A stretch of 48,183 nt of DNA. Origin: Candidatus Cryptobacteroides intestinipullorum (GTDB lineage Bacteria > Bacteroidota > Bacteroidia > Bacteroidales > UBA932). Shown in pieces: positions 2,707 through 46,985 of this stretch. A program made the position numbers and the translations under genes. Within the stretch, counting starts at the first letter, position 1; every line of letters begins with the position of its first letter. A model generated the notes under the pieces. That model was given only the letters and a program-made list of their open reading frames with translations. It ran no database searches and was not told where the DNA came from. The stretch covers positions 1 to 48,183 of the forward strand of contig DVIP01000185.1 of the NCBI GenBank assembly GCA_018711225.1. Reading direction: 5' to 3'.

Positions 2707-2901
2707 GTCCTTCGATGTTGGCAATCTGTTACGGAAATGTTAAAATATTGTTACAATATTTCTTAACAAATATTTTACATTGACGAAATGCGACCGGAGA
2801 CGGAAATAATATAACTTTGCGATGTTTTCCGTTGATTATGACAGGGGAAGACAGGTGCCGGAGCGGGAGTCTTGTGCCGGCTTTATATTAAAAGAGTGCT
2901 T

Positions 2902-3591
2902 ATGGATAAAAAGAAAATAATGGTGGTCGACGACGAACCGGATATCCGGGAAATCCTTCAGTTCAATCTGGAGAATGCCGGTTATGCGGTAGAGTCCGTG
3001 GCTTCGGCGGAAATGGCGCTGGAGATCTGTGAACAGGATATTGACCTGATTCTTCTGGATGTGATGATGGAAGGCATGTCCGGGTTCAAGATGGCAGAAA
3101 TACTCAGGAAGGAGAAGAAGAGCCAGATACCTATAATATTCCTTACGGCCAGAAGCGCCGAAAACGACCTGCTGACTGGCTTTTCCGCAGGAGGGGACGA
3201 TTATATCGCCAAGCCGTTTTCCATAAACGAGGTCCTGGCCAGGGTCAAGGCCGTACTCAAAAGGAGCAATATGCCCAAACAGGAAAAGGAGCAGCAGCAG
3301 ATTGTGCTCGGCAAACTCAGGATAGACGTGGCCAGAAAGATGGTATATGTCGAAGACAATGCGGTGGTGCTTCCGAAAAAGGAACTGGAAATACTCACAC
3401 TTCTGGCTTCTCATCCTGGCAGGATATATTCGCGTGAAGAGATGATAAACGAACTTTGGGAGGATGCACCGTATGTCCTGGACAGGACTGTGGATGTGCA
3501 TATCGCCCGCATAAGAAGCAAGCTCGGCGTGTGCAAGGGTTATCTGACGAACAGGTCAGGGTACGGTTATTCCATGAATGCCGAAGAATGA
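2902..3591 (+). CDS. Response regulator, OmpR/PhoB-type
   Basis: MDKKKIMVVDDEPDIREIL receiver with phosphoacceptor region LILLDVMMEG and winged-helix output; start moved to internal ATG at 2902. Confidence 0.92.
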   Translation: MDKKKIMVVDDEPDIREILQFNLENAGYAVESVASAEMALEICEQDIDLILLDVMMEGMSGFKMAEILRKEKKSQIPIIFLTARSAENDLLTGFSAGGDDYIAKPFSINEVLARVKAVLKRSNMPKQEKEQQQIVLGKLRIDVARKMVYVEDNAVVLPKKELEILTLLASHPGRIYSREEMINELWEDAPYVLDRTVDVHIARIRSKLGVCKGYLTNRSGYGYSMNAEE

Positions 3592-3606
3592 CAGGAGACA
3601 GGAAAG

Positions 3607-5331
3607 ATGGTGAAGAACGAGAAAAGACGGTCTTATAAAAGGCAGCTGCTGGCGTATTTCGCGGCGGTTTTCGCCGTGTTTGCGACATTGCTGATCCTTT
3701 TCCAGTTCCGCAGCGACAAGAACAACAGGAAAATGATGCTGGAGAACCGTCTTTCATGCTATGCGGACATAATCGCGCAGACGGACGACTATGCCTCGAC
3801 GGTTTCCCTGTTCCCTCCGGAACTGAGAGTGACGGTCATCGACAAGGACGGCGTAGTGGTGTATGACTCTGTCGGTGATGAACAGCGCCTGGACAACCAT
3901 GCATCGCGCCCTGAAATACAGGAGGCCAGGAAGGAGAGGGAAGGGGATTCCATCAGGAAATCTGACACTGTGGGCATAAATTATTTCTATTATGCCAAGT
4001 CTTACGGAGGGTACGTCGTACGGATGGCCCTTCCGTTCGAATATGATGTCAAGAAAGCCCTCCGCCCGGACTCCGTATTCATATTGATAGTCGTGCTGGT
4101 ATTTCTGGTGGCGTTGTTTTTCATCATTTTCCTTTCGGACAAGTTCGGCGAAGGCGTATCAAGGCTGCACAGATTCGCTGAGGCTGCGGACAAGGGGCAG
4201 GTGGATTACGAGAACATGTCGTTCCCGGATTCCGAATTGGGCGATATCGGAAAACAGATGCTGGAGAGCTATCACAGACTGGAGCAGAGCAACAGGATTA
4301 TCGCTCTCGAGAAGGAAAGGCTTCTGCTGCACCTGCACTATTACGACGGCGGCATCGCCATTTTCTCGCAGGAAAAGAAAAAGGTTTATGCCAATGCCAG
4401 GTTCGTGCAGTTCGTGAACCTGATGCTGGACAGGCCTACTCCTGACCTCGATTCCCTGTGGGACAGCGAGATATTCAAGCCGGTTTCCGAGTTTGTTTCG
4501 CGCAATACCGATTCCAGGGTGGACAATGTCCCTGTGTTCCAGTACAATGTGAACAAGGGCGGGCGCGTATATACCCTTCAGGTGCTGGTTTACCCGGACA
4601 ACGGTTTCGAAATGTCCGTAAACGATGTTACCGGCATAGAGAAGAACAAGGTGGTAAAACAGCAGATGACCAACAATATAGCCCATGAACTCAGGACACC
4701 TGTCAGCAGTATCCGCGGATATCTGGAGACGCTTACAGTGTGCAGGGATATTTCCGCAGAGAAGCGGAACATGTTCCTGGAGAGGGCGTACGTGCAGGTG
4801 ATGAGGCTGTCTGACCTGATCCGCGACATAGGGATGATAACCAAGATAGAGGAGGCTCCGGAACAGCTGCATAAGGAGAAAGTGAATCTGAAGAATGTCG
4901 TGGACGAGGTGTCTGACGAACTGCGGCCGCGGCTGGAGGAAATGGGTATTCTGGTGGAGAATGCCCTGGAGGACGGCCTGTGCGTGAACGGGAATCCGAG
5001 TCTGATTTACGCCGTATTCCGGAACCTTATGGAGAACAGCCTGAAATACGGCGGACGGGAGATAAAGATACATGTGGAGTGTTATGCTAAGGGTGACGGC
5101 TATTTCCACTTCTCATATTATGATACCGGAAAGGGTGTTCCGGAGGAACATTTGTCTAAGATTTTCGAAAGATTCTACAGGGTTTCCGAAGGCCGTACCC
5201 GCGATGACGGTGGATCAGGGCTGGGACTTTCCATCGTGCGGAATGCCATTGCTTTCCATAAGGGAGACGTGCGTGCATTGAACAGAAAAGGCGGAGGCCT
5301 TGAATTCATTTTCTCTCTGAGCGAGAAATAG
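3607..5331 (+). CDS. Sensor histidine kinase (PhoR-like)
   Basis: Two TM segments, NNIAHELRTPVSSIRGYLETL H-box, N/G boxes (ENSLKYGG, DTGKGVPEEHLSKIFERFYR, GGSGLGLSIV). Confidence 0.92.
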   Translation: MVKNEKRRSYKRQLLAYFAAVFAVFATLLILFQFRSDKNNRKMMLENRLSCYADIIAQTDDYASTVSLFPPELRVTVIDKDGVVVYDSVGDEQRLDNHASRPEIQEARKEREGDSIRKSDTVGINYFYYAKSYGGYVVRMALPFEYDVKKALRPDSVFILIVVLVFLVALFFIIFLSDKFGEGVSRLHRFAEAADKGQVDYENMSFPDSELGDIGKQMLESYHRLEQSNRIIALEKERLLLHLHYYDGGIAIFSQEKKKVYANARFVQFVNLMLDRPTPDLDSLWDSEIFKPVSEFVSRNTDSRVDNVPVFQYNVNKGGRVYTLQVLVYPDNGFEMSVNDVTGIEKNKVVKQQMTNNIAHELRTPVSSIRGYLETLTVCRDISAEKRNMFLERAYVQVMRLSDLIRDIGMITKIEEAPEQLHKEKVNLKNVVDEVSDELRPRLEEMGILVENALEDGLCVNGNPSLIYAVFRNLMENSLKYGGREIKIHVECYAKGDGYFHFSYYDTGKGVPEEHLSKIFERFYRVSEGRTRDDGGSGLGLSIVRNAIAFHKGDVRALNRKGGGLEFIFSLSEK

Positions 5332-5593: not shown

Positions 5594-8525
5594 ATGAACA
5601 CGAAACCAATTCTTTCGTTAATCTCTGCCCTTGTCTTGTCTATGGGGGGGGGGTACTCTATTAGCACAAGATAGGATAGTCTCAGGGGTTGTCAGCGATG
5701 CTGTCGGTCCGGTTTACGGGGTCGCAGTGCAGATTTCGGGTACGACAGACGGTACGACCACAGACGCTGACGGTAAATTCTCAATTTCTGTACCGGAAGG
5801 CAAAAGCCTTTATATTTCATGTCTCGGCTATGAGTCCCAGACTATCGAGGTCGGCACCAGAACCCAAATAGATATTGTCCTTGCCGAAGATTCGCAGATG
5901 CTGGAGATGGCGACTGTCATCGGCTACGGTTCCGGGAGTAAGATCGGCACGACGATAGGTTCTGCCGCCACGGTTTCCGAGCAGACGATAGAGAACAGGC
6001 CTACTGCCAATGTCGCCGATGCGCTGCAGGGAAAAGTCGCCGGTCTGCAGGTCTATACCGATTCCGGAGAGCCTTCGGCTTCTTCGTCGATAAGGCTGCA
6101 CAGCGCTGGTTCAATATCTGCGGACACGGCGCCTCTTATCGTGTTGGACGGCGTCCCGGTGTCCACATCTGTATTCACAACATTGAATTCGAACGATATC
6201 GAATCCATAACGACTCTGAAGGACGCTTCTGCAACATCCATTTACGGATCCCGTGCCGCTAACGGAGTGATATATATCGCTACCAAAAGAGGAAAACGCA
6301 ATGAAGAAATAAATGTTACGGCGAGGGCGCAGTATGGTATATCACAGCCTGCGACAAACAGGTACGAAGTGATGAATTCTTCCGAAGTCGCCATGTACCA
6401 GCTGCAGAACGGCCTGATAGACAAGCTCCGTTATGATCAGATCATCGCATCCGGAATCAATACGAACTGGAGGGACTATTATTACAAGTCTGCAGCCCCT
6501 GTCTTCCAGGCAGACCTTTCCATAACCGGCGGTTCGGAAAAGACGGCTTATTATATTTCAGGGTCTTATATGGACAAGGAGGGTACTGCGCCGGGGTCAT
6601 CCCTGACCAGATACTCGTTCAGAACGAATCTGGATATAAGCGCCAGGAACTGGCTGCGTTTCGGTGCAAATCTGGCCTTGAGTTTCGATGAGCGTTCTAC
6701 GGCACAGTCTACATCAAATTCTGTTTACAATGCCGCTTTCATGTCGCTTCTGTCTCTGCCGTACGATTCTCCGTATAATGAAGACGGTTCGGAGAAGGAG
6801 ATGATATCCGGATATTACAATCCGAACTACATGATTAAAAACCACCCTTCCAAGACCAAGAATCTTCAGATCAACGGAAGCGCGTATGTCCAGATCACTC
6901 CGATCAGGAATCTCAACATAAAGTCAGTGTTCGGTACATTTGCCTATGCGTCATGGAGCGAAGCTTATGAGCTTCCTACGTATGCCGGGTCCATAGGGAA
7001 CGGAACCGTGACCAGAGGACATCAGAATGGCGGGACCTTCACGATTACCAATACAATAGACTATAATTTCGATTTCAATGACCCTGATCACAAGCTTTAC
7101 CTGCTTGCCGGCCAGGAGGGGATAAGGGCTGATGAACTTTCATTTTCGGCACAGCGCAGCGGCCAGATCAGGAATGAGCTCATGACCTTGTCCACAGGTG
7201 TCGGCATACCTCAGGTTGCGGACAGCAAATCAAGCTATGTGTTCAATTCATGGTTTGCCAGAGCGGAATATTCATTCAAGAACAGATATGTTTTTGATGC
7301 ATCCGTACGAAGGGACGTATCTTCGCGTTTCGGAAAGAACAACAGGGCCGGCATATTCTACGCATTCGGTGCCATGTGGAATCTCAAGCAGGAGAACTGG
7401 CTGATATACAATAACGTCATTTCGGATCTCAGCCTGAAGGTTTCATACGGTACTCAGGGTAATGCCGCCATTTCCAATTATGCCCACCTTTCTCATCTTG
7501 CCACAACTCCGTACGGTGATGAGATCGGGCTTTACAATGCATCGGAGGGAAATGAGGATCTCGGATGGGAAACCCAGCGCCTGCTCACGGTAGCAGCAAG
7601 CATACAGTTCATAGACAGGATATCTGTCGATCTGGAATTCTACAACAGACTGTCCGATGACCTGCTGATGGATGTCCCTGTTTCTGCTACAACGGGATAC
7701 GTGACAGAAGCCAGAAATGTGGGTGCCATGCTCAACAGGGGTATAGACGTGACCGTCAATGCCGACCTGTACCGCGACAAGAACTGGTATGTAGGTGTGA
7801 ACGCCACGTTCAATTACAACAAGAACAAAATGACCAGGCTTTTCAACGGTCTGACCGAATATGCCCTTTCAGGAAGAGGTGCATGCTGGGCTGTAGGTCA
7901 TGATTTCTGCGAATTTTATCTTCCTGTCTATGCCGGTGTGAATCCGGAGACCGGAGCACCCCAGTGGGAGACAGTTGATCCTGAGACCGGAGAGAAGGGA
8001 ATAACGGAAGATTTCAATCAGGCGACAGAGCAGTTTACCGGCAAGACGTATATGGCTCCGTTTACAGGAGGTTTCGGTCTGAATGCAAGCTGGAAAGGTA
8101 TCTCACTTTCTGCCGATTTCTCGTGGAATGCCGGGAAGTCACTCGTGAACAATGCCCTGATATTCCTTGAGAATCCAGGTTACGCGTCTACATTCAACAG
8201 GTCCAAGAGACTTCTCAGGGCCTGGACCAAACCGGGAGACCAGACAGATATTCCTGCTTTCGGTTATATGACACAGATGGATACCAGCATTCTTGAGGAT
8301 GCATCCTTCATGAGACTCAAGAATCTGACGCTGTCATACGACTTCCCTTCGGAACTCATCCGCAAAAGCGGTTTCCTGAGTGGCGTAAGGATATATTTTG
8401 TGGGCAGGAACCTTCTGACTGTCACCAAGTTCACAGGATATGACCCTGAAGTGGATTCAAATGTGTCCTTAGGCGACTATCCTAATACAAGAGAGTTTGT
8501 GGGCGGAGTGCAGTTTACATTCTGA
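5594..8525 (+). CDS. SusC/RagA-type TonB-linked outer membrane protein; frame interrupted in the signal peptide by a G10 tract (5644-5653)
   Basis: CNA_B-like/plug/barrel signatures (VIGYGSGSKIGTTIGSAATVSEQTIENRPTANVADALQGKVAGLQV; LKDASATSIYGSRAANGVIYIATKRG). ATG 5594 encodes MNTKPILSLISALVLSMGGG then goes out of frame; the caller's ORF uses TTG 5631. Confidence 0.93.
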
Positions 8526-8572: not shown

Positions 8573-10165
8573 ATGAACAAGTCAAGAATTGTCATATTGT
8601 CGGCCGTAATGGCTACTGTGGTTTCATGTAATATGGACAGGATGTCTCCTGACAGCGTTCCGTTGGACGAGGCTTTCCTGAACATGGAATCCGTTGAGTC
8701 TCTGGAACGTGGAGCTTATTCCCGTCTTAGGACAGCATACAGTCCGAGCAGCATGATTGCTCCTGATATCCAGGCAGACTATGTGAATGCCGTGGACGGA
8801 TTTACAAACACATACGGAGAACTGTATCAGTGGAACTTTACATACGATGACACGGATGTCGAGACCACATGGAATAATTTCTACGGTACTATCAGCCAGT
8901 GCAATTTTATTTTGGACGGAATCAAGTATAATCTCGGTTTCGAGCCGGATGCCGCCCAGCAGGCTACCCTGGATGAGATTTGCGGAAGGATGCATCTGAT
9001 AAGGGCCATCTCCTATAGCGTGCTTGCAGAAAGATTCTGCGCTGATTATGAATCGTCCACAGCGGGGAACCCGGCTACCGGACTTCCGCTTGTGATTTCC
9101 TATGATACTTCATACAAGCCGGACAGATCCACTCTGGCGAAAGTCTATGAGACTATACTGGAAGATCTGGATGAAGCCGGAAAGCTTCTCGCCGGGACAG
9201 AAACCGCATCCGACAGGGATGTACTCAATATGGACTGCGTGACGGCGATGGAGGCCAAGGTCTACCTTCAGATGGACAATTATACCGAGGCGCTTTCCAA
9301 AGCCAATTCCCTGATAAGTGACGGTAATTATCCTCTGTCGGAAAGCAAGGAGGAATTTGCTTCAATGTGGGTCAACGACAGTTCGGACGAAATTATTTTC
9401 AAGTTCTACGCAAGCGTGAACGAACTTGCTTACCAGTTCGGATATTATTTCTACAAGGATTACTTCAACGGTACCGGAGACTATCATACGATGACTCCTG
9501 ACTATATTCCGACTCAGGCTTGTGTGGATATGTACGACGATGCGGACTGGAGGAAGGATACATATATGAAGTATTGCGACATGCCGTCCGATTTCGGAAA
9601 CGCCACTGATCTTTCCGACGGGTATTACATGATGATAAAGGGCAATACGATGTTTGCTGACCAGGCCTATATCATCAGCAAGTTCCCAGGCAATCCTGAA
9701 CTTCAGACCACTACGTCGTTCAACTATTTCAATGCATGGAAGCCTTTCAGAATCGCGGAAATGTACCTTATCGCGGCCGAGGCCGCCGTGCAGAGTGAGG
9801 GTGACGCAGCCACGCCTCTGAACGAATTGCGCAAACACCGCGGACTTCCGGCCATAGAGGGAACGGTCACTATGGAGGATGTCCGGGAAGAGAGGTACCG
9901 TGAAATGATGATGGAGGGCACCAGACTGACTGACCTGAAGCGCTGGAAACTCGGTATCACAAGATCTGAAGATGATGTGCAGAGCGGAAATGTCGGTCCT
10001 ACCCAGATGGGCGGATGGAGTTCCTCATACGATTATGTCGCCAATGTCGGCCTGTCTCTTTCTGCAGGAGCGGATGATTACAGGTTTGTATGGCCTATAC
10101 CGGCTTCCGAAATATTTGCAAGCCCTCAGCTCGAATCTCAGCAGAATCCGGGCTGGAGAAGATAG
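8573..10165 (+). CDS. SusD/RagB-family lipoprotein
   Basis: Lipobox VVSCN, TTWNNFYGTISQCNFILDGI, RIAEMYLIAAEAAVQSE, LNELRKHRGLP, EERYREMMMEGTRLTDLKRWKLG. Confidence 0.93.
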   Translation: MNKSRIVILSAVMATVVSCNMDRMSPDSVPLDEAFLNMESVESLERGAYSRLRTAYSPSSMIAPDIQADYVNAVDGFTNTYGELYQWNFTYDDTDVETTWNNFYGTISQCNFILDGIKYNLGFEPDAAQQATLDEICGRMHLIRAISYSVLAERFCADYESSTAGNPATGLPLVISYDTSYKPDRSTLAKVYETILEDLDEAGKLLAGTETASDRDVLNMDCVTAMEAKVYLQMDNYTEALSKANSLISDGNYPLSESKEEFASMWVNDSSDEIIFKFYASVNELAYQFGYYFYKDYFNGTGDYHTMTPDYIPTQACVDMYDDADWRKDTYMKYCDMPSDFGNATDLSDGYYMMIKGNTMFADQAYIISKFPGNPELQTTTSFNYFNAWKPFRIAEMYLIAAEAAVQSEGDAATPLNELRKHRGLPAIEGTVTMEDVREERYREMMMEGTRLTDLKRWKLGITRSEDDVQSGNVGPTQMGGWSSSYDYVANVGLSLSAGADDYRFVWPIPASEIFASPQLESQQNPGWRR

Positions 10166-10194
10166 AAGTTCCCTTATTGAAAATTAAAATAGAT

Positions 10195-10695
10195 ATGACC
10201 ATGAAACGTTTCAAGTTATTGGCTATTGTTCCGGCATTCCTTTTTACTGTATTGTCGGCAAATGCCCAGATTCCGGCAGCTGATGTCGAAAATTCAAAGG
10301 GTGAGATTATTTCCACATCATCTCTTGTGGACGGAAAGACCCCTATGATTATTTCATTCTGGTCTACTACCTGCAAACCTTGCATACGTGAACTTGATGC
10401 CATAAACGAACTTCTTCCGGACTGGCTGGAAGAGGCCGATTTCCGTGTTGTGGCTGTCTCTACTGACGATGCCAGATTTTCCACCAAGGCCCGTTCTCTT
10501 GTACAGGGCCATGGATGGTATGACTTCACCGTCATCTACGACAAGAACCAGGCTTTCATGAGGGCCATGAATGTCACTTTGACACCGCAGGTTTTCATAG
10601 TCGATGCCAACGGTAAAATAGTCTATTCCCATACGGGTTATACTCCGGGAAGCGAAATCGAACTTTTCGAGAAGATAAAGGAAATATCTGAATAA
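10195..10695 (+). CDS. TlpA/ResA-like thioredoxin-family protein (exported)
   Basis: Signal peptide MTMKRFKLLAIVPAFLFTVLSANAQ; ISFWSTTCKPCIREL CxxC motif; TPQVFIVDANGKIVYSHTGY. Start moved to ATG 10195. Confidence 0.88.
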   Translation: MTMKRFKLLAIVPAFLFTVLSANAQIPAADVENSKGEIISTSSLVDGKTPMIISFWSTTCKPCIRELDAINELLPDWLEEADFRVVAVSTDDARFSTKARSLVQGHGWYDFTVIYDKNQAFMRAMNVTLTPQVFIVDANGKIVYSHTGYTPGSEIELFEKIKEISE

Positions 10696-10703
10696 CCGGT
10701 GAG

Positions 10704-12329
10704 ATGAGCAAGTGCAAGAACATACTTCTGACAGCGGCTGTTCTGGCCGGACCTGTTTACACCATGGCCCAGGATACGGACAAGGGTTACCTGACGGGAA
10801 GTTTCGAGACCAACAATATCCTGTATAGAGAAGATCCCAAGACAGGCGCTTTCCCTGGTGATGACAAGTTCGGTTCGAACAATTACCTGAAACTGGACTA
10901 TTATAGGGGCAAGTTCTCTGCAGGTCTTCAGCTTGAAGGCTATTTCCCTGTCCTTCAGGATTATCCTGTAGAACTCCAGAAAGCAAAGCTGACCAATTAT
11001 TTCGTAACCTGGACAGACAATGATTTCTCTGTAACGGCCGGGACTTTTTACGATCAGTTCGGGAGCGGCCTTCTGTTCAGATCATGGGAGGACAGGACTC
11101 TCGGTATGAACAATGCCGTCATGGGAGCAAGGTTTACATATAATTTCAAGAATATCCTGGCTCTTAAGGCGATATGGGGAATGCCGCGTATAGGGATGGA
11201 TTTCTCGGATACAAAGGTGCGCGGCCTTGATCTGAGTTTCGCCGTCTCCGAATTGTTCAATTGGAATGACGGTCCGTATTTCGCGATAGAAGGTTCTGTC
11301 CTCAGCCGTTATGAGGCTATTTCCACGGATCTTGAGGACGAGGGCGGCAAACCGAATTCGGAAGGCTATTCCGGAAGAATCAATTTCGAATACAACGGAT
11401 TTTTCCTTAAAGGTGAATATGTAGATGCCGGCATGAAATACTATACGAACCCGGATATAGGCCAGGGTACGGAAATGTATTTGAAAAAAAGAGGCAATGC
11501 CCAGCTCATCGAACTCGGATACAACAATCACGGGCTTGGAGTGAATCTGACTGCCAGACGTCTGGAATGGATGAAATCCCAGATAGTGTCAAGCGGGACA
11601 ATGGCGACTTCGACCGCAAACCTGCTTAATTATGTTCCGGCAATGTGCACACAGTACACATACCTTCTGACCAATTTCCATCCGTATACCCCGCAGATAG
11701 GCGAACCAGCCTACCGGAACAGCGGAGAAATGGGCGGACAGCTTGACGTTTATTACAATTTCCGCAGAGGAACGGCACTGGGCGGCAAGCGCGGGCTGAA
11801 GATACATGCGAATTTCTCGACATATTATACTCTTGCCGAAGAAGGTACGGCCAAGCCGGGAAATCTGCTTTACCGGGACTTGAGCGTGGATATAGAGAAG
11901 CAGTTCACGAAAAAGTTCAAGGCGCTGCTGCTCTATTCCCTGCAGGAGCAGAATACGCATTATGGTGTGGGCACGGCTACGAGACTGCAGAATATCGTAG
12001 TGGCCGATATGCAGTATCGTTTCACTCCGAAATTCTCTACCAGGCTAGAACTCCAGTATCTCGCCACTCATGAGGACGAGAAGGACTGGATGGCGGCTTT
12101 GCTCGAAGTGAATTTCGCCCCGTCATGGAGTATTTATGTCAGTGACATGTTCAATCACGGAAGTTCGAAACTGCATTACTATGCTGCAGGTGTCAGCTAT
12201 GTAAAATCCCGCACCAGAGTTTCTCTCAGTTACGGGCGGAACAAAGACGGATATGTGTGCTCCGGAGGCGTGTGCCGTGTGATATCGGCTTATACGGGAT
12301 TCAATCTTCAGATAACGACATCTTTCTGA
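10704..12329 (+). CDS. Outer membrane beta-barrel protein, DUF6029-like
   Basis: Signal peptide, alternating aromatic/hydrophobic strands, C-terminal ...GFNLQITTSF barrel end; CSGGVCR motif near C-terminus. Confidence 0.65.
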   Translation: MSKCKNILLTAAVLAGPVYTMAQDTDKGYLTGSFETNNILYREDPKTGAFPGDDKFGSNNYLKLDYYRGKFSAGLQLEGYFPVLQDYPVELQKAKLTNYFVTWTDNDFSVTAGTFYDQFGSGLLFRSWEDRTLGMNNAVMGARFTYNFKNILALKAIWGMPRIGMDFSDTKVRGLDLSFAVSELFNWNDGPYFAIEGSVLSRYEAISTDLEDEGGKPNSEGYSGRINFEYNGFFLKGEYVDAGMKYYTNPDIGQGTEMYLKKRGNAQLIELGYNNHGLGVNLTARRLEWMKSQIVSSGTMATSTANLLNYVPAMCTQYTYLLTNFHPYTPQIGEPAYRNSGEMGGQLDVYYNFRRGTALGGKRGLKIHANFSTYYTLAEEGTAKPGNLLYRDLSVDIEKQFTKKFKALLLYSLQEQNTHYGVGTATRLQNIVVADMQYRFTPKFSTRLELQYLATHEDEKDWMAALLEVNFAPSWSIYVSDMFNHGSSKLHYYAAGVSYVKSRTRVSLSYGRNKDGYVCSGGVCRVISAYTGFNLQITTSF

Positions 12330-12364
12330 TAATAAGAAGTTTAATACTATAGAAAAGATTCAAG

Positions 12365-13474
12365 ATGAAAAGAGTACTTTATGTTCTGATATGTGCCGTG
12401 ACGACTGCGGCCATGATTTCATGCGAGGGTACTGCCGGCAATGGTGAGAACACCAATCCTACCGGTGCCTATACTCTGGTGGCAGACAAGACTGTCATTG
12501 AAGCCGACGGCGAAGACATCGTGACTTTCCGTCTTTATAGTCCGGACGGAGAGGACCTTACAGCCAGCAGCCAGAGGAACTATATTACCATAGAAGAAAT
12601 AAACACAGGAGTAGAGCTTGGCAGTGACTTTACTTTCAATACGATAACGAACGGAACATTCCGTTTCAAGGCATATTACCGCAATTATGAAAGCGAGAAT
12701 GAAGTGGAAGTCCAGGGACAGAACAGGAGCAAGTATGAGAAATATGCAAAGAAAATAGCTGTCTATGACCTTACAAATGTAATGTGCGGCCCATGCGCCA
12801 TTCTTGCCTCTACTTTTGAATCTCTGTCGGATGACTGGCAGAACCGCTTCTGTGTAATGGGAATCCATACAAAAATGAGCGGCTGGGACGATTCGTTCGT
12901 GATTGATGCCGGCGCTTATCTTTTCCGTGAGTACGGTGCTACCGGAACACCTCATACCATATTCAGCCTTGCGGAGTCGAGAACAGGGACGATGGCCGCT
13001 TCCGATATCGTGGAAACTCTCGAAGCACAGCTTCGCAACTATCCGTCCACTTGCGGAGTCGCCGTCAAATCCGCCTCGTATGATGATGCGTCCAACAGCA
13101 TCACGATTTCTGCCGGCATCACATCTGTGACCGATGGAGAATATGATCTGATATACGCCCTTCTGTCAGATAACCGCGAGCACCTTATCTACGGCGATGA
13201 CTATCAGACTTTCAATGATGTGGTATATGCCCTTACTCCGAATTATTCCGGCATCCTGGATATCCCGGAATATCCTTCCGTTACCCTTGTCGCCGATCAG
13301 GAGCATACTGAAACGCACACTTTTGAATTCGGTTCCACCGCAGTTTCCGATGATGTGCTTGAAAATACAAGAGTAGCTGTACTTGCCATAAGGCCGAATG
13401 GGGATGACTATATCATAGACAATATGGCAGTATGCCCTCTCGGAGAAAGTATAGACTATGTCCTTAATGAATAA
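12365..13474 (+). CDS. Omp28-related lipoprotein with thioredoxin-like domain (MCGPC)
   Basis: Lipobox MISCE; Ig-like N-terminal domain (ADKTVIEADGEDIVTFRLY); KIAVYDLTNVMCGPCAILAS; GATGTPHTIF. Confidence 0.75.
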   Translation: MKRVLYVLICAVTTAAMISCEGTAGNGENTNPTGAYTLVADKTVIEADGEDIVTFRLYSPDGEDLTASSQRNYITIEEINTGVELGSDFTFNTITNGTFRFKAYYRNYESENEVEVQGQNRSKYEKYAKKIAVYDLTNVMCGPCAILASTFESLSDDWQNRFCVMGIHTKMSGWDDSFVIDAGAYLFREYGATGTPHTIFSLAESRTGTMAASDIVETLEAQLRNYPSTCGVAVKSASYDDASNSITISAGITSVTDGEYDLIYALLSDNREHLIYGDDYQTFNDVVYALTPNYSGILDIPEYPSVTLVADQEHTETHTFEFGSTAVSDDVLENTRVAVLAIRPNGDDYIIDNMAVCPLGESIDYVLNE

Positions 13475-13481
13475 TACCGGA

Positions 13482-14573
13482 ATGAAAAGGTTATTCCTAT
13501 TGACTGCTGCCGTCATCTGCGCTTTTCTGGCATCCTGTTCTGGAAACAGCGGAGATGAGGGCATGCTCGTGATAAGTGCGGACAAGACTGATATTCAGAC
13601 CGGAACCGGTGAGATAGTGACATTTACTGTCAGATACGGTTCGGAAGATGTCAGTACATCTGCCGATATGGTCATATCCTATACCTCTGCATCCGGAGAT
13701 GATATTTACTCGCTTGAACCGGGAGTGAATACATTTTCTTCCACTGTTCCCGGTTCATATTCCTTTACAGCTTCCTACAAGTCCGGCACTGCGGAAATTG
13801 TCAGCGAAAATTCGGTCGAGGTTACGGTTTCAGGTGAGCAGATATCTTATGCCAAGAAAGCGTATGTGATGCAGTTTACCGCGGTTGGATGCCCGAATTG
13901 CCCTATCATGAGCACGAATCTGTCTCTGATGGAAGAGGATCATCCAGATGATTTTGTGGTCGCGGCATATCATATTTCCTACAATGCTATCCAATATCCT
14001 GATCCTATGGTCACGTCCATAGGAGAAAAATACAGGCAGGAATTTGATGTTACCGGTATTCCGAGAGCTCATTTTGACATGCATGAAGATAGGATTCCTG
14101 CTGATCTGACATCGCTGGAAAATGCTTTGGAACAGTCCCTTTCGGAGAAGCCTTTCTGTGGCGTGGCCATAGAAAGCGAATATGACGGGACTGCCCGCCA
14201 TCTTTCTGTCACGGCAAAAGTGCGGGCAAACCGTTCCGAAGTGTGCCGCTATCTTATAGTGCTTGTCGAGGACAATATAGAATATGACCAGTTATCCGCT
14301 CCGGTTACTCCTTATTATCACAACAATGTGGTCCGGGAGGTTCTTGCAAACAACATATACGGAGAACGCTTCAATTCCGGCAGACCTCTGGTACCGGGGG
14401 TCGAGTACACATCTTCCAGAGCAGTGGATATACCGGCTTCCTGGAATGTTGAAAATATGAGGATAATTGTCGCTGTCCAATATGAGGGCAGTGACGGTGT
14501 CACATATTATACGGACAATGCCAATGTCTGCAGACTTGGGGAGTCCGCAGACTATAATGTAATAAGTGAATGA
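13482..14573 (+). CDS. Omp28-related lipoprotein paralogue (GCPNC)
   Basis: MKRLFLLTAAVICAFLASCSG lipobox; KAYVMQFTAVGCPNCPIMS; same domain order as neighbours. Start could also be 13467. Confidence 0.75.
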   Translation: MKRLFLLTAAVICAFLASCSGNSGDEGMLVISADKTDIQTGTGEIVTFTVRYGSEDVSTSADMVISYTSASGDDIYSLEPGVNTFSSTVPGSYSFTASYKSGTAEIVSENSVEVTVSGEQISYAKKAYVMQFTAVGCPNCPIMSTNLSLMEEDHPDDFVVAAYHISYNAIQYPDPMVTSIGEKYRQEFDVTGIPRAHFDMHEDRIPADLTSLENALEQSLSEKPFCGVAIESEYDGTARHLSVTAKVRANRSEVCRYLIVLVEDNIEYDQLSAPVTPYYHNNVVREVLANNIYGERFNSGRPLVPGVEYTSSRAVDIPASWNVENMRIIVAVQYEGSDGVTYYTDNANVCRLGESADYNVISE

Positions 14574-14580
14574 CAGAAAT

Positions 14581-15654
14581 ATGATGACAAGGGTATTCAA
14601 GGCGGCTGCGGCCGTAGCTGCAGGTGTCGTCCTCTTTTCATGTTCAGGAAATTCCGGTGAAGAAGACGGCCAGGTAATATTGGAAGCAGACAAGACTTCC
14701 ATTGTAGGAAACGGGACTGATGCTGTAACCTTTACGGTACGATACGGTTCTGCTGACGTCACCTCTGAGGCGGAAATAATCTGCGAGAACGACGGAAGCG
14801 TGCTGGATGAGCCGGTATTCGCTTCTGCGGCGGCAGGCCCTTATTCGTTCAAGGCCAGATATCAGGAGATGGAATCGGCATCTGTTCCGGTGACTGTAAT
14901 AGAAGATACGCAGGATGTTCCGGATGAGCCCGATGAACCTTCCCGGTTCGTGAAAAAAGTCTGCATTCTCGAATTTACAGGACAGTGGTGCCAGCAGTGT
15001 CCTGCAGGCATGCAGTACCTGAACTTCGTAATTCAGATGAATTATGAGGATATAGCACATGTCATAGCCATTCATAATGCTTCGGGCGGTTCGGACAATT
15101 ATGTGCTGCCTGAAGAGTCCAATCTGGGCATATCCGACCATTTCGGTCTTAACGGATATCCGGCGGCAGCCATCGACATGAGGGATGTCGTATACCTTAA
15201 CAGTGACGGAGGTCAGCTTCGCGGCCTGCTTGGGACTGCCGCCGATCGTCATCCGCGCTGCGGTATCGGGGTCCGCTCCTCATATTCCGGGCAGTCATCT
15301 TCAGCAGAAGTGACAGTCAGTCTTATGCCTGAGGTGGAGCAGCCGTACAAACTGGCTGTTTATGTCGTGGAAGACAATATCAAGGACCAGCAGGCGGGGG
15401 AAGGTCTGTATAATCACCGTCATGTAGCACGTCATGTTGTGTCCGAGTCTTTCTATGGAGACAACCTCGGCACCTTGTCTGACGGTCAGGAGACAGAACG
15501 GACCTATACTGTCAGTATAGACAGTGCCTGGAATCTCGACGAGACCTATATATATGCCGTTGCTCTCGATGAAAACGGCTATGCCTTGAACATGTCTTTC
15601 TGCCCGATAAAGGACGGCAATGCCCCGTACCTTTACGTTTCCGGGCAGGAATGA
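14581..15654 (+). CDS. Omp28-related lipoprotein paralogue (WCQQC)
   Basis: Lipobox LFSCSG; KVCILEFTGQWCQQCPAGMQYL; GLNGYPAAAIDMR. ATG 14581 preferred over GTG 14566. Confidence 0.75.
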   Translation: MMTRVFKAAAAVAAGVVLFSCSGNSGEEDGQVILEADKTSIVGNGTDAVTFTVRYGSADVTSEAEIICENDGSVLDEPVFASAAAGPYSFKARYQEMESASVPVTVIEDTQDVPDEPDEPSRFVKKVCILEFTGQWCQQCPAGMQYLNFVIQMNYEDIAHVIAIHNASGGSDNYVLPEESNLGISDHFGLNGYPAAAIDMRDVVYLNSDGGQLRGLLGTAADRHPRCGIGVRSSYSGQSSSAEVTVSLMPEVEQPYKLAVYVVEDNIKDQQAGEGLYNHRHVARHVVSESFYGDNLGTLSDGQETERTYTVSIDSAWNLDETYIYAVALDENGYALNMSFCPIKDGNAPYLYVSGQE

Positions 15655-46946: not shown

Positions 46947-46985
46947 AGCAAGCCGCATTCATAGAGCAAGCCGCATCCCCCCCCC
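46943..46985. repeat. 16-bp direct duplication (ATAGAGCAAGCCGCAT x2) followed by a C9 tract
   Basis: Read directly at 46943-46958, 46961-46976 and C9 at 46977-46985. Confidence 0.95.

Follow-up and report, generated by a model that had tools for sequence, protein, structure and literature searches.

The haemoglobin receptors encoded by hmbR and hpuA in Neisseria meningitidis are phase-variable through poly-G tracts; for hmbR, 9 G is the commonest length and interrupted tracts occur (PMC3786947). For Campylobacter jejuni NCTC11168, PMC4965091 gives 29 poly-G/C loci of 7 or more. SusC/SusD importers of Bacteroides fragilis undergo phase variation by DNA inversion (Nakayama-Imaohji 2009, as cited in PMC11868660 and PMC12632263). 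The words "slipped" and "homopolymer" are both absent from a 2025 review on model Bacteroidales of the gut, and a search of the open-access literature turned up no account of SusC genes in this order that vary in phase through poly-G.

Here we describe a G10 tract in a SusC gene of Candidatus Cryptobacteroides intestinipullorum, located in the window (the whole stretch of 48,183 nucleotides that was analysed). From sequence comparison, we consider it very likely that this tract is a slipped-strand contingency site and belongs to a multi-locus poly-G phase variation of SusC importers. As in hmbR and hpuA, a poly-G tract within the reading frame belongs to a TonB-dependent outer-membrane receptor system and the reading frame would set ON or OFF (PMC3786947). 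The two cases differ in phylum and ligand; the window tract, moreover, falls within the signal peptide that a SusC paralogue encodes, and a single genome has many SusC genes with tracts. Reversibility and phenotype were demonstrated in Neisseria and are predictions here. The inversion system of B. fragilis, as it is summarised in the citing papers, shares the protein family, the order and the outcome, a random choice of SusC/D importers, but it uses a site-specific invertase where the present loci would use homopolymer length and reading frame.

A G10 Tract Closes the Frame of a SusC Gene

Positions 5644-5653 (+) of the window are ten Gs inside the signal-peptide coding region of the SusC gene. 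In this allele, the frame from the ATG at 5594 reads MNTKPILSLISALVLSMGGGYSISTR and then meets a TAG stop at 5672-5674, so that the start codon and signal-peptide region (5594-5674, +) comprise 26 codons before the stop. With 9 G the frame continues as ...MGGGTLLAQDRIVSGVV... and is open into SusC, and with 11 G it ends as ...GVLY-stop. The 10 G and 11 G alleles both stop within a few codons after the tract, and 9 G alone of these lengths opens the frame. A TTG at 5631 shares the SusC frame and is preceded by an in-frame TAA at 5619-5621. The original prediction, of a SusC signal peptide whose frame is broken by a G10 tract and whose allele was captured OFF, was reproduced in all its frames, stops and codons.

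The tract had also been called the only comparable G run on its strand, which is correct, as all other G runs of the (+) strand are 5 or shorter. Counted together, G and C runs of the window number 110 at length 4, 21 at length 5 and one each at lengths 6, 9 and 10, the last two being outliers. The run of 9, which that claim did not mention, is a C9 at 46977-46985 (G9 on the minus strand). It lies five bases past the stop of a minus-strand IPP-transferase (miaA-like) gene and adjoins a short direct repeat (GCGGCTTGCTCTATgaat GCGGCTTGCTCTATc).

The ORF at 5631-8525 (+) is SusC by Pfam (CarbopepD_reg_2, Plug and TonB beta-barrel domains), and its body is open from 5654 to 8525. These three domains and the adjoining susD identify it as a SusC/RagA TonB-dependent importer. 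The SusD partner (SusD_RagB, SusD-like_3) occupies 8573-10165 (+). Genes for a redoxin, a DUF6029 protein, one further ORF and two Omp28 proteins (10090-15654, +; Pfam) likely belong to the same operon, as judged from spacing and orientation. Upstream of SusC, at 2872-5331 (+), a domain scan found an OmpR-type response regulator and a sCache/HisKA histidine kinase, and the kinase end is conserved beside the SusC orthologue of a sister species (L073). No glycoside hydrolase was found among the scanned neighbours of SusC/D (8573-15654), which sets this locus apart from classical glycan loci.

Orthologues of the Window Gene Differ in Tract Length

A scan of genome contigs yielded one close orthologue (L073) and distant Chryseobacterium receptors, which were left out. 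Among 400 sampled genomes of the genus, only two more close orthologues came to light, L228 (G326) and L229 (G348). L073, on a contig labelled "uncultured Bacteroidales bacterium" (a MAG), has an N-terminus 87% identical to that of the window gene and is, by synteny and similarity, a sister-species orthologue. It uses the same ATG, and its start reads MKAKYLIPLISVLFSLGGGTLLAQDR. In its residues LGGGTLLAQDR the three glycines, encoded GGA GGG GGT, are conserved with respect to the window, the homopolymer is interrupted and the frame is open. L228 and L229 are both 79% identical to the window protein, with a start region reading MKAKHLLLLVSMLVLSMWG.... This conservation of the start in all three relatives supports ATG 5594 as the true start.

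L228 reads ATG-T-G8 and L229 reads ATG-T-G6, where the SusC frame requires T-G7; the former is closed by +1 and the latter by -1. Over 5,878 aligned bp the two are 98.0% identical, with 115 mismatches and a single indel, which consists of two tract Gs. At the window locus, alleles of 10, 8 and 6 G are therefore all OFF (3 of 3 uninterrupted alleles) and the interrupted form of L073 is ON, with no ON allele with a long tract seen there; each tract length in this study is the consensus call of one assembly per species. The original prediction would have fallen if all relatives showed exactly 9 G, or if they lacked a homopolymer and started elsewhere. Neither is the case, as G8, G6 and interrupted forms were found and the three relatives share the start.

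The locus of L228 and L229 is shared by G326 and G348 at 98% identity (SusC 99.8%), and some other loci shared by the two are only about 80% identical, which suggests that this locus was recently transferred between species.

Comparison of the SusC body of the window with that of L228 (952 codons) gave a dN of 0.159 and a dS of 1.81 (dN/dS 0.088), with no break besides the tract. This indicates purifying selection on the SusC protein although both assemblies show a closed frame.

That independent assemblies differ at the same site (10, 8 and 6 G) also bears on the rival reading that the true length is 9 G and that a faulty draft sequence gives the appearance of an OFF frame. Homopolymers are error-prone, the window genome is a draft in 187 contigs, and the collection does include poly-G artefacts, one of them where a contig of G018 begins. 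However, the 2-base difference between L228 and L229 is the sole indel in 5.9 kb, a typical artefact would be longer than G6, the tracts are internal to contigs and matched in orthologues, and errors would not cluster at SusC 5' ends. We therefore regard an assembly or sequencing error as very unlikely.

Other SusC Genes Are Found in ON and OFF Forms

In a second SusC gene (L001), a tract of 8-11 G is located at the same site, directly past the signal-peptide end, in eight species, four of them ON and four OFF. It is in frame with 9, 10, 9 and 10 G (L320, L321, L322 and L324) and out of frame with 8, 9, 11 and 8 G (L323, L325, L326 and L327). Between L321 and L325, the 41 bases 5' of the tract and the 20 bases after it are identical and the tracts are 10 and 9 G long, in loci that are 86% identical overall. 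A third gene (L010) is ON with G9 in the window genome and OFF with G10 in G181 (L335), at 96.9% identity over 3.2 kb and with no other indel in the gene; interrupted, in-frame forms of it occur in some species. A fourth SusC gene is ON with G7 in G326 and OFF with G10 plus T in G348, in sequence that is 98% identical. The comparison of all tracts between G326 and G348 used shared loci only, as 54 of the 68 tracts were without an orthologue in the pool and the two genomes have few highly identical regions in common. A further ten OFF SusC genes are readable at full length (L109, L198, L208, L214, L223, L262, L272, L293, L229 and L303), and in each of them the poly-G tract is the sole break.

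Tract length thus differs among related genomes with conserved flanks, at L228/L229 and at further SusC loci. The tract itself is a homopolymer of unusual length within the reading frame, of which one length class opens the gene, and the remainder of the gene is intact and selected. The proposal of a slipped-strand switch is supported by the variable tract lengths of the orthologues, by selection on the SusC body and by the similar tracts at other SusC 5' ends. As far as the compared sequences go, the phenomenon is wider than the single-gene switch first proposed, since it extends to other SusC genes, in the genome and in its relatives, in both ON and OFF alleles.

Slippage during transcription or translation would instead yield some full-length SusC from every allele, so that the tract would tune rather than switch expression. 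Long G runs can promote slippage, and selection acts on the SusC body even with three of the four alleles OFF, both of which would fit. The shift required differs, however, being +1 for G10 and G8 and -1 for G6, and many tracts need no shift at all, whereas the geometry of a conserved recoding site should stay constant. This explanation also leaves the DNA length polymorphism unaccounted for, and we judge it highly improbable, although expression slippage could coexist with switching as leakiness. Finally, a recent pseudogene, that is, an importer being lost through an ordinary and permanent frame-breaking mutation, would fit the three of four orthologues (window included) that are out of frame, but it can be given hardly any credence when about 960 codons past the tract are stop-free in three species at a dN/dS of 0.088, ten other OFF genes are broken solely at poly-G and the L001 gene is ON in some species and OFF in others at one site.

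Long G/C Tracts Accumulate at SusC 5' Ends

The window assembly (2.44 Mb in its 187 contigs, 86.8% complete) contains 11 separate G/C runs of at least 9. Six of the 11 lie in SusC genes, five of the 11 within the first 150 codons. Besides the window gene, these SusC sites are the signal-peptide end (L001), a position between the N-terminal STN-like and CarbopepD regions (L003), the CarbopepD region (L008 and L010) and about codon 300 (L006). The remaining tracts belong to a LacI-type regulator (L002), a propeller-type sensor (L004) and a LytS-like histidine kinase (L007), or are located upstream of a nucleotidyltransferase (L005) and just past the stop of an IPP-transferase (miaA-like) gene (L013).

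Assuming a generous 60 SusC genes per genome, whose first 150 codons would make up 1.1% of the genome, 0.12 tracts would be expected in SusC 5' regions of the window genome, where 5 were seen (P = 7e-8). In the eight genomes searched, 33 to 38 SusC/RagA genes were scored per genome, 38 being close to the number scored by the search. Pooling G000 and G029 (runs of at least 9) with G326 and G348 (runs of at least 8) placed 21 of 92 tracts in the first 150 codons of SusC genes against 1.0 expected, a comparison whose P-value is inflated by orthology among some of the tracts.

Run lengths in the sampled relatives also set these tracts apart, as the distribution of G runs has a distinct second maximum at 9 and that of A/T runs declines steadily. 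In the fetched parts of G326, G/C runs of 6, 7, 8, 9 and 10 number 8, 3, 7, 15 and 3; in those of G348, runs of 6 to 12 number 17, 0, 6, 17, 10, 4 and 1. The regions of both genomes were picked around tracts of at least 8, which biases the height of the peak but accounts neither for the scarcity of 7 nor for a mode that falls at 9 instead of 8.

Of 24 additional tract ORFs scanned in G326 and G348, seven encode full hybrid two-component regulators (propeller, kinase, receiver, HTH_18), and among the others are GH20, GH2, fimbrillin-like, Omp28 and peptidase genes. Each genome has 4 to 10 Y_Y_Y-domain regulators. In L264, L282, L283, L288, L297, L307 and L312 (G326 and G348), a hybrid two-component regulator has a long G/C tract within it or where it begins, and tracts in these regulators would switch whole loci.

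With 27 tracts of at least 8 in G326 and 38 in G348, against 29 of at least 7 in NCTC11168 (PMC4965091), some genomes of the genus resemble C. jejuni in having a genome-wide G/C tract set of about that size. The two sets differ in their genes, with SusC importers and PUL-type regulators prominent here, and in mismatch repair, as MutS1 is present here. The targets in C. jejuni are mainly surface-glycan and modification genes.

In the fetched loci of the genus, a TA follows directly 3' of 84 of 210 deduplicated G tracts of at least 9 (40%), compared to about 5% of G4 and G5 runs, and A runs in these loci show no such excess. The fraction is 0.45 with G on the coding strand, 0.39 with C on the coding strand and 0.34 where there is no long ORF. 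A coding explanation was rejected, as the frequency is similar whichever strand codes or without a long ORF. The excess may reflect an easily melted TpA step beside the tract, or a sequence-specific process. The latter would allow a more far-reaching reading, in which nutrient sensing and import in the genus are served by a contingency system of their own that spans the genome. Its poly-G sites would be made or kept by a sequence-specific process (G9 then TA), and each would independently flip a SusC importer or a hybrid two-component regulator of such a locus. We mention this reading as an unlikely one.

Proposed Switching of SusC Importers by DNA Slippage

Switching by slippage at the DNA level explains all observations, and assembly error, pseudogene decay and recoding each explain only part of them. 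We propose that single Gs are gained or lost in the signal-peptide coding region, moving the gene between one open frame (9 G in the window, 7 G by the geometry of L228/L229) and two frames that stop soon past the tract. A cell would then either make the outer-membrane SusC importer or not, and the window would be a +1 OFF allele. With several such sites in the genome and the genus, at SusC 5' ends and in regulators, the cells of one population would form a mosaic, differing in which importers are on. We infer slippage as the mutational route, its reversibility, variation within one strain and the lack of the importer in OFF cells from the compared alleles. The benefit would be nutrient bet-hedging, or escape from receptor-binding phages or antibodies.

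It counts against switching that the tract is not conserved in L073, that all three uninterrupted alleles at the window locus are OFF and that long G runs occur across the order, usually a few per genome (at least one in 160 of 198 genomes). Absence of MutS1 was rejected as a cause of slippage, since MutS1 is present in 11 of 11 genomes tested; slippage would therefore need to be faster than mismatch repair, which is the case in Neisseria.

Tract-length polymorphism needs no inverted repeats or site-specific recombinase. Switching by poly-G slippage would thus be a second route beside inversion, recombinase-free and acting on single importers and their regulators. If true, draft genomes would wrongly call such genes broken, and a single base could flip nutrient preference, phage sensitivity and surface antigens. 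Given the other run lengths in relatives, at this gene and at many similar ones, random ON and OFF switching of nutrient transporters through slippage of the DNA is probable in these Bacteroidales.
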